Assembly (NCBI GenBank): GCA_029782135.1
Contig: JAKOVI010000069.1
Span: forward strand, 1-43,108
Source: Bacillota bacterium
GTDB lineage: Bacteria; Bacillota; UBA4882; UBA10575
DNA: 43,108 nucleotides
Reading direction: 5' to 3'
Part shown: positions 13,970 to 18,200 of the stretch, piece by piece
Layout of the letters: the number at the start of each line of letters is the position of its first letter
How positions within the stretch are numbered: position 1 is the first letter of the stretch
Position numbers and translations under genes: made by a program
The notes under the pieces: generated by a model
What the model was told of the DNA's origin: nothing
Database searches by the model: none
The model's input: only the letters and a program-made list of their open reading frames with translations

Positions 13970-14848
13970 GTGTCCTCTAGCTGGAAAAAGATCGGTATAG
14001 TGCTCTTTTTCGGGGTTAGTTGTGGTTTCCTGGTGCATGCTCTCAGCCCCCAACTTCTCGATCGGCTCAGGGATTTTCCCGAAGCCCGGATCGAAAACGA
14101 TACCCACTTCCGGGCGGAGGCCGGCGAAGAGGGAGCCGGGTACCCTTACGGCAGGCCGGTCGCGGGCCGGACCCGGTTATGGTGGGAAACGGAACCGGAG
14201 TTTCGCCGTTTATGCCTCCAACACCGGACGGTGGTCCGATTGGCCGCCTTCCAGACTACCCTTCCCCATCCGCAGGCGGGCGAAGAACATAATATTAAAC
14301 TGGCGGCGGAAAAGATCAGGGGGCAGGTAGTTGCGCCAGGCACGGTCTTCTCTGCCAATGCCGTCATCGGACCGCGAACGGCGGAACGCGGTTTTCAGGA
14401 CGGACCCACCTACTATGGTACGGAGGTCCGGCCCTCAGTTGGCGGAGGGGTGTGCAAGGTCGCCAGTACCCTTTATAATGTAGCGGTCCTGGCCAATCTG
14501 GAGATCATTGAACGCTGGCCGCATAGCATGCCGGTGCCGTATGTTCCCCCCGGACAGGATGCGACGATTGCTCTTTATAAGGATCTTCAATTCCGGAACT
14601 GTACCGGTACTCCCCTTTTGATCTGGGCGGAAACTAAGGACTCAACTTTGTATATCGCCTTTTACGGCCGGAAAAGACCGCCCAAGGTCTCCTGTCATCA
14701 TGAGGTGTTATCCCGCTGGCCGGCACGGACGATTTATCGGGAGAACTCCGAGAAATTCACCGGAACAAGGAAATACCATTCTGCCTGGGCAGAGATTCCG
14801 AGCAAAGGGCAGCATTTTCAAGTCAGACGATTGACTTTAGTAGCATAA
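13970..14848 (+). CDS. VanW family protein, membrane-anchored
   Basis: A 292-residue protein with one N-terminal hydrophobic segment (IGIVLFFGVSCGFLVHAL) and a VanW domain. The match is clear: NIKLAAEKIRGQVVAPGTVFSAN-type opening, IGPRTAERGFQDGP, VGGGVCKVASTLYN (family usually GVCQ; here Lys) and ERWPHSMPVPYVPPGQDATI. VanW proteins are found in some glycopeptide-resistance clusters and widely in Bacillota; the function is not known. GTG 13970 has the SD AGGAAGG (13958-13964); the in-frame ATG at 13952 has none but overlaps the previous stop. A resistance role is not supported, since no other van gene is nearby. Confidence 0.87.
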   Translation: MSSSWKKIGIVLFFGVSCGFLVHALSPQLLDRLRDFPEARIENDTHFRAEAGEEGAGYPYGRPVAGRTRLWWETEPEFRRLCLQHRTVVRLAAFQTTLPHPQAGEEHNIKLAAEKIRGQVVAPGTVFSANAVIGPRTAERGFQDGPTYYGTEVRPSVGGGVCKVASTLYNVAVLANLEIIERWPHSMPVPYVPPGQDATIALYKDLQFRNCTGTPLLIWAETKDSTLYIAFYGRKRPPKVSCHHEVLSRWPARTIYRENSEKFTGTRKYHSAWAEIPSKGQHFQVRRLTLVA

Positions 14849-14859
14849 TAAGCTAAAAT
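14831..14859 (+). promoter_or_regulatory. Promoter of the ileS T-box leader
   Basis: TTGACT (14831-14836), 17-base spacer, TAAAAT (14854-14859). It overlaps the last codons of the VanW-family gene and places the start of the leader near 14866. Confidence 0.78.
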
Positions 14860-14865
14860 AAATGC

Positions 14866-15122
14866 AATTATACAAGTCTTAACCAGGCGAGGAGAGGACG
14901 AGTAGTACGGTAACGGGTAGACAGAGAGTCCCGGTTGGTGGAAAGGGATAACTACGGCCGTATGAAGATCAGCCTTGAGCCTCCGGACCGAACCTGGCAG
15001 TAAGTCCGGACGGATTACCTCCGTTATCAGGTCTTGAGTGGGTAAGGTACGCATGAAAGCTGACCTTATCAAGATGGGTGGTACCACGGTCTAATTGCCG
15101 TCCCTTTGCGGACGGTTTTTTT
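14866..15122 (+). ncRNA. T-box leader, isoleucine-specific, controlling ileS
   Basis: The conserved T-box AAGATGGGTGGTACCACGG lies at 15071-15089; its UGGU bulge (15079-15082) would pair with the tRNA ACCA end. In Stem I, GTACGG pairs with CCGTAT just before GAAG and the specifier ATC (14968-14970, Ile) followed by A; the AGTA of the opposite strand is also present. The terminator is CCGTCC (15098-15103), loop, GGACGG (15110-15115) and seven Ts. Uncharged tRNA-Ile should favour the antiterminator and raise ileS expression. The left boundary is inferred from the promoter. Confidence 0.95.
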
Positions 15123-15215: not shown

Positions 15216-18200
15216 ATGGGTGGAAAGTTTCGCGAGATTGATGTCAAAGGTTCGGTCAGCGAGCGGGAAGAGCAGATCCTCAAGCGCTGGCTGGACGAAG
15301 ATATGGTCAAGCTAAGTGTGGAAGCGCGGGCGGGCGCGCCCAAGTTTATCTTTTATGAAGGGCCGCCGACCGCAAACGGGAAACCGGGAATTCACCATGT
15401 CCTAGCCCGGACGATCAAGGATACGGTCTGCCGCTACAAGACAATGGAAGGCTATCAAGTGGAGCGGAAAGCCGGCTGGGACACCCACGGGTTGCCGGTG
15501 GAGATTGAAGTCGAGCGGAAATTGGGGCTCTCTTCCAAACAAGGAATCGAAGAATACGGGATTGAGGCCTTTAACAAGGAGTGCCGTGAATCCGTCTTTA
15601 CCTATGAGCGGGAGTGGCGCCGGATGACGGAACGGATCGCCTACTGGATTGATCTGGATCATCCGTACATTACCCTGGATAATGACTATATCGAATCCGT
15701 CTGGTGGATTTTGAAGAAATACTTCGATGCCGGGTTGATCTACGAGGGCCATAAGATCATGCCCTACTGCGCCCGCTGTGGGACCCCCCTGGCTTCGCAC
15801 GAAGTTTCGCAGGGGTACAAGGAAGAGAAGATCAACTCGATTTATGTGCGGATGAAAGTGGTGGGGGAACCCGGGACCTACTTCCTGGTCTGGACCACCA
15901 CCCCCTGGACACTGCCGTCCAACGTTGCATTGGCGATTAATCCAGCCTTCACCTATGTCCGGGCCCGCCGGCCGGACGACGAGAATATCTATATCCTCGT
16001 GCGTGAGCGCGTCGATGCGGTGCTCGGCAAGGGGGCGGAGATCCTCTCCGCGGTCAAGGGGGAGGAACTGGTGGGGATGGCGTACGAGCAACTCCTTCCC
16101 TTCATTAAGCTGGAGGACCAGGCCGCTTTCCATGTCTACGGCGCCGACTTTGTCTCCACCGAGGACGGGACCGGGATTGTGCATATCGCCCCGGCCTTTG
16201 GTGAGGATGACTACCGTTTAGGCCAAGAGTATAACTTGCCGGTCCTGCAGCCGGTCAACAAGGAAGGGAAGTTTACGCCGGAGATCACACCCTGGGCCGG
16301 ACAGTTTGTCCGGGACGCCGATGACGAGATCACCGAACATCTGAAGGAGGAGGGCAAACTCTTCCGGAAAGAGCGGATCACCCACTCTTATCCTTACTGT
16401 TGGCGGTGTGACACACCCCTGCTCTACTATGCCCGTAAATCCTGGTATATTGCCGTTACTAAATATAAAGACCGGCTGATTGAGTGCAACAAAAAGGTCA
16501 AATGGTATCCGGAGCACGTCGGTAGTGGCCGTTTCGGGAACTGGCTGGAGAACCTGATCGACTGGTCGCTCTCCCGTGACCGTTACTGGGGAACCCCGCT
16601 CAATATCTGGCGGTGCGAAACCTGTAACCGGCTGACCGCCGTTGGCTCGCGCCAGGAACTGGCGGAGCGGGCGCTGGAGGCCGTTGATCCGGCAACGATT
16701 GAACTGCACCGTCCATATATCGACGAAATTCACCTCAAGTGCGAATGCGGCGGGCGGATGACCCGTACCCCGGAAGTGATCGACTGCTGGTTTGACTCCG
16801 GCGCGATGCCGGTTGCCCAGTGGCATTACCCCTTTGAGCATAAGGATAATTTTGCGGAGCGTTTCCCGGCTGATTTTATCTGCGAAGGGATTGACCAGAC
16901 CAGAGGCTGGTTCTACTCGCTCCTGGCGATCTCGGTCTTCCTCTTTGACCAATCGCCTTACAAGAGTGTCCTCGTCAATGACTTGGTCCTCGATAAGAAT
17001 GGGCAGAAGATGTCGAAATCAAGGGGCAATACCGTTGATCCTTGGAATTTAATCGAACGGTACGGCGCTGACGCCACCCGCTGGTACCTCTTGGCCGTCT
17101 CGCCGCCCTGGACCCCGACCCGCTTTGATGAGGAAGGGCTCAAAGAAGTCTTCTTAAGATTCTTTGGTACGGTCTTAAATGTCTACTCCTTCTTTACGCT
17201 TTATGCGAATATTGATAATGCCGATCCGGAAGCCTATGCGATTCCGGTGGCCGAACGGGAGGAGATTGACCGCTGGGTGATCTCCCGTCTTAATTCGCTG
17301 ACGAAACAGATCCGGAAGGATATGGAGGGTTATGACCTGACCAAAGTCGTCCGGGCGATCCAGACCTTTATGATTGACGAGGTCTCGAACTGGTATGTCC
17401 GGCGGACCCGCGAGCGCTTCTGGGCGCCGGAGATGGACCGGAATAAACAGGCAGTTTACCGCACTTTGTGGGAGGTGCTGGTGACGGTCGCCAAGTTGAT
17501 GGCGCCCTTCGCCCCCTACCTGGCGGAAGATATCTATCAGAATCTGGTGCAAGGCCCGGCGAAGAAGCGTTCGGTCCATATTGAACTCTACCCGGAGGCC
17601 GAAGAGGCGTATATCAATCCCGAACTGGAACGCCACATGAACCTGGTGATCAAACTGGTCTCCCTCGGGCGTGCCGCCCGGAACCGGGTCCAGTTGAAAG
17701 TCAGACAACCGTTGGCCGCCCTCCGGATTGACCGGAAAAACGAAGAGCTCTTAAAACCAATGGAAGACCTGGTCAAAGAAGAGCTCAATGTTAAATCCAT
17801 CCTCTACGTCTCCGATCCGGACGAGTATGTCTCCTATACGGTCAAACCCAACTTCCCGGTTTTAGGCCCCAAATACGGCAAGCTTATGAAAGGGATTGGG
17901 CAAGCCCTCGCGGCGGCCGACGCCGCGGCGTTGGTCAGAAGTTTAAGAACGGAGCAGAAAGTGACGCTTAATGTGGAAGGGACGGCGGTGGACCTCACGG
18001 TCGAGGACCTCGAGGTGCGGACGGAGGAAAAACCCGGTTTCGCCGTTGAAATGGAGCGGGATCAGTATGTGATCCTTGATACCACGCTCACCCCTGCCCT
18101 GATCCAGGAAGGTTTGGCCCGTGAGGTCGTCTCTAAAGTGCAGAATATGCGGAAGAATGCCCAATTCGAATTGACGGACCGCATTAAGATTGCCTATTGG

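Follow-up and report, generated by a model that had tools for sequence, protein, structure and literature searches.

A sole, T-box-controlled type-2 isoleucyl-tRNA synthetase with a GIHH signature in a Bacillota lineage

Introduction

Type-2 isoleucyl-tRNA synthetases (IleRS2) in which the first class I signature, HXGH, is replaced by G/AXHH were described by Brkic et al. (2023), who sampled 86 G/AXHH and 77 HXGH IleRS2 sequences (PMC10485003). Although most class I enzymes strictly require the histidine at position 1 and the glycine at position 3 of the HIGH motif, natural G/AXHH IleRS2 proteins are fully active (kcat of 45.5 per s for Deinococcus radiodurans DrIleRS2), and the variant retains a housekeeping role and has a broad distribution (PMC10485003). 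Exchange of the motif in both directions demonstrated that G/AXHH causes hyper-resistance to mupirocin: DrIleRS2, which naturally carries ALHH, exhibits a mupirocin Ki of 6.6 mM, as compared with 8.1 uM after restoration of HVGH, and introduction of GVHH into two canonical IleRS2 proteins increased the Ki about 170-430-fold (PMC10485003). The size of the effect depends on the enzyme background, with mutant TtIleRS2 reaching a Ki of only 35 uM (PMC10485003). The IleRS2 from Streptomyces griseus (Ki of 10 mM) is able to replace Escherichia coli IleRS and represents an already known housekeeping IleRS2 encoded by a sole gene (PMC4861432). Genomes encoding two IleRS proteins occur in some Bacillaceae (PMC10485003).

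In this study, we analyzed the ileS gene carried by a Bacillota genome (assembly GCA_029782135.1) on contig JAKOVI010000069.1, the whole 43,108-nucleotide stretch of which is referred to here as the window. We compared its product with the enzymes described above and with IleRS proteins encoded in related genomes, with a particular emphasis on the first class I signature, copy number, and regulation.

Results

Signature motifs, type, and closest relatives of the protein

The features identified at the locus are listed in Table 1. The window protein belongs to the class I isoleucyl-tRNA synthetases, matching the curated ileS family model TIGR00392 with 1007.8 bits (cut-off 621.4) and scoring under the cut-offs of the valS models. 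Its first signature lies in the context ...GPPTANGKPGIHHVLARTIKD... and, with glycine at position 1 and histidine at position 3, assigns the protein by sequence to the non-canonical G/AXHH IleRS2. The second signature is unaltered (QKMSKSRGN, at about residues 597-605), and other invariant synthetase positions are also kept in the alignment. Both motifs had been reported in the initial annotation of this DNA; translation of the ORF confirmed the GIHH residues and bases exactly, and translation together with alignment confirmed that KMSKS is intact. A sequencing or frame error behind GIHH was ruled out, because the motif is found in the same context in the nearest species (90% identical) and in all 20 of the 20 close relatives in which it was readable (68-90% identity to the window protein). 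Long ORFs of 177-260 aa located antisense within ileS (15402-16184, 16218-16952, and 17175-17708, all on the minus strand) are likely shadow ORFs of the coding strand.

Table 1. Features of the ileS locus (positions refer to the window)
Feature	Position	Strand	Evidence
Candidate sigma-70-like promoter, TTGACT-17-TAAAAT, ahead of the T-box leader	14831..14859	+	Consensus scan, 10/12; weak alone (3 found in the region vs 2.4 expected)
T-box leader with an AUC (Ile) specifier and a conserved GGGTGGTACC antiterminator element	14881..15108	+	Rfam RF00230, 114.8 bits, full-length model match
Intrinsic terminator, 7 bp stem followed by a T run, competing with the antiterminator	15097..15116	+	
ileS, type-2 isoleucyl-tRNA synthetase, 1047 aa	15216..18359	+	ORF, TIGR00392, genome searches, tree
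First class I signature, GIHH (residues 58-61), replacing HXGH	15387..15398	+	Direct reading; kept in close kin
Second class I signature, KMSKS (residues 598-602), intact	17007..17021	+	Translation and alignment

To place the protein among the two IleRS types, we used a tree of 87 sequences with a ValRS outgroup, in which IleRS1 was represented by E. coli and five local sequences. IleRS1 formed a single group with full support. The window protein fell inside the group of IleRS2, the eukaryote-like type (99-100% SH-aLRT), apart from IleRS1, as the initial annotation had proposed.

Among solved structures, the nearest by sequence are those of Priestia megaterium IleRS2 (8c8w, 8c8v, 8c8u, and 8c9d; about 1090-1100 bits, with matches spanning almost the entire length), the top match being 8c8w, which carries GVHH. 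The motif arrangement in the P. megaterium GVHH mutant is the same as in the window protein, whereas the wild-type enzyme carries HVGH and accompanies an IleRS1 as a second copy; the window protein carries GIHH and is the sole copy. An AlphaFold2 model of the window protein, based on an 11-sequence alignment, was poor (mean pLDDT of 63.9, <30 around the motif).

The IleRS proteins from S. griseus and D. radiodurans resemble the window protein in both IleRS type and the swapped first signature, and S. griseus also resembles the window genome in encoding IleRS2 by a sole gene. In contrast to both of these enzymes, the window protein belongs to another phylum and another sequence subclade and is under T-box control. 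MupA and MupB, responsible for acquired mupirocin resistance in staphylococci, are IleRS2 homologs as well, and the MupA sequence compared here is 42.6% identical to the window protein. However, this MupA has the canonical HTGH and is plasmid-borne, whereas the window protein has GIHH, is encoded by the sole ileS of its genome, and scores far under the cut-off of the MupA/MupB resistance models (965 and 1014 bits, compared with 1900).

Copy number, genomic context, and regulation

Protein and family-model searches of the whole draft genome (2.38 Mb) identified a single ileS; the further matches were to ValRS (HLGH) and other class I paralogs, which scored far lower and under the ileS cut-off. 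The draft comprises 163 contigs and is 96.6% complete, which makes a second ileS unlikely. Relatives possessing the same gene, within a class of 29 genomes, also carry it as their sole ileS. Downstream of ileS in the window are trkA and trkH, an ordinary chromosomal setting among annotated genes.

A T-box is located ahead of ileS in relatives too, with AUC found in those whose specifier was readable. The genome contains 17 T-box matches, several of which directly precede other synthetase genes, e.g., valS, leuS, and metG, and T-box control thus appears as the normal mode for synthetase genes in this genome. The claim in the initial annotation that the gene is the housekeeping ileS, made on the basis of its Ile T-box, is therefore upheld by two findings: the gene is the only copy found, and it is regulated by a confirmed Ile T-box, as a translation gene.

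Distribution of the GXHH signature

With a degenerate DNA pattern encoding A-N-G-x-P-G-x-H-H, we found GXHH in at least 42 of 398 genomes and at least 27 of 266 genera of the phylum, both counts being lower bounds since the pattern is exact. Among 80 named IleRS2 loci, 38 encode GXHH and 42 HXGH, a ratio which does not represent a census because the loci were chosen by similarity to the query; GXHH occurs there in Bacillota and nine other named phyla. Judged from these sequences, GXHH is an inherited lineage trait and not a peculiarity of a single genome, since it has become fixed in almost the entire class of the window and also occurs in at least 42 of the 398 genomes from the phylum, as well as in nine other phyla. 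Any implication that a sole GXHH IleRS2 is rare was not borne out, the arrangement being both common and already published.

Exceptions within the class comprise G023, with a canonical HIGH IleRS2, G027, with IleRS1, G017, with two IleRS proteins, and genus g3, with an HTGH IleRS1. The last of these represents a type swap in the window's own family: in G003 and G008 (loci L132 and L134), the HTGH IleRS1 is T-box-led and IleRS2 is missing. The two IleRS proteins of G017 (L036/L130 and L129) are an IleRS1 with the canonical HIGH and a highly divergent enzyme; the divergent enzyme carries ITANNPMGIHH and KFSKT, shows ~35% identity to the window protein, and forms a long branch.

Among the plasmid and phage matches listed, we found no convincing case of a mobile GXHH ileS. 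Apart from MupA, the best of these matches were L125 (NZ_CP081930.1, a Riemerella 'plasmid' with lepA and lspA), L126 (NZ_CP154629.1, a 2.6-Mb 'plasmid'), and the unverified 'phage' scaffolds L127 and L128 (MT835536 and MT835484). All four carry a housekeeping ileS and are probably mislabelled chromosomal or contaminating sequences.

A first tree hinted that GXHH is ancestral in IleRS2. After removal of the motif columns, this hint did not hold: in the main IleRS2 group, neither a single GXHH clade (AU p 0.66) nor a single HXGH clade (AU p 0.67) was rejected, and we accordingly do not call the published ancestral reconstruction into question.

IleRS1 proteins with an HIGT signature

IleRS1 carrying HIGT, with threonine in place of the fourth-position histidine, was observed in ten genomes of the phylum: G027, which belongs to the same class as the window genome (L131/L144), and nine others (L146-L151 and L153-L155). 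At the threshold applied, the HIGT gene was the only IleRS1-like gene in each of these genomes, with that of G284 reported in two pieces, and in the IleRS1 tree the HIGT proteins are spread over several branches among HXGH enzymes. In L153 and L154, HIGT is accompanied by AMHKS in place of KMSKS, so that each of these two enzymes departs from the canonical form in both class I signatures. All IleRS1 proteins have been stated to possess HXGH, in a study from which sequences without the catalytic motif had been removed (PMC10485003), and our literature search found nothing relevant on the HIGT signature among the papers listed. An HIGT IleRS1 is less ordinary than a sole GXHH IleRS2.

Discussion

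The window gene is very probably the housekeeping ileS of a T-box-using, Bacillota-like lineage (a class of 29 species), whose IleRS2 naturally carries GXHH and is expected to be insensitive to mupirocin, yet catalytically competent. The enzyme would charge tRNA-Ile as any IleRS does, and its own expression would respond through the T-box to uncharged tRNA-Ile. From published homologs, the tip of the signature helix in IleRS2 would be displaced from the adenine pocket; solved and assayed homologs suggest that, as a result, the histidine at position 3 of the motif may be compatible with ATP and Ile-AMP but clash with mupirocin. By analogy, hyper-resistance of the window enzyme is expected, because natural GXHH/AXHH IleRS2 proteins have Ki values of 6.6-10 mM (PMC10485003, PMC4861432), values which also bear out the statement in the initial annotation that such variants have been reported as hyper-resistant. 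The window enzyme is predicted to retain catalysis and to have a mupirocin Ki between high micromolar and millimolar values. In all likelihood, the sole ileS of the lineage would make it intrinsically resistant, a real property of an already published kind.

A separate question is why the motif became fixed. There is about an even chance that GXHH is present here by descent, as an old state that is neutral or was selected differently, with resistance as a by-product instead of an adaptation to mupirocin; this concerns the cause of fixation and is compatible with a housekeeping, mupirocin-insensitive IleRS2. Fixation of the motif across the class and its presence in many unrelated phyla, including gut anaerobes, which presumably have no obvious exposure to mupirocin from Pseudomonas, favor such an origin, and our data are compatible with one clade uniting the GXHH sequences of the major IleRS2 branch. 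On the other hand, swapping the motif alters mupirocin binding strongly and specifically (PMC10485003), which fits past selection by mupirocin itself or by a compound like it. We consider it rather unlikely that GXHH represents an ancient alternative mode of catalysis in IleRS2, found class-wide and across phyla, in which hyper-resistance is accidental and some other ligand or kinetic property maintains the motif.

It is very improbable that the 3-4% absent from the assembly contains another, canonical ileS, with the window gene serving as an auxiliary resistance copy. The assembly is fragmented, and dual-IleRS genomes exist, both in the same class (G017) and in some Bacillaceae (PMC10485003); however, near relatives with the same gene have one ileS only, the window gene possesses the complete Ile T-box expected of a main copy, and its position beside trkA and trkH is that of an ordinary chromosomal gene. 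That the altered motif marks an inactive or repurposed synthetase-like protein can practically be dismissed, despite the importance of the two exchanged residues in most class I enzymes, given that the protein is the only IleRS found in the genome, retains KMSKS and other invariant positions, and has fully active natural G/AXHH counterparts such as DrIleRS2.

If the window IleRS2 acts like its relatives, the whole lineage would be intrinsically insensitive to mupirocin, with no acquired gene needed. This would be useful to know in predicting resistance from genomic or metagenomic data, where a match to the general ileS model does not flag such an enzyme and the protein falls under the MupA/MupB cut-offs. 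The window ileS is an ordinary new example of the known and widespread GXHH kind of IleRS2, and it adds one T-box-controlled class to the published pattern without changing that pattern.
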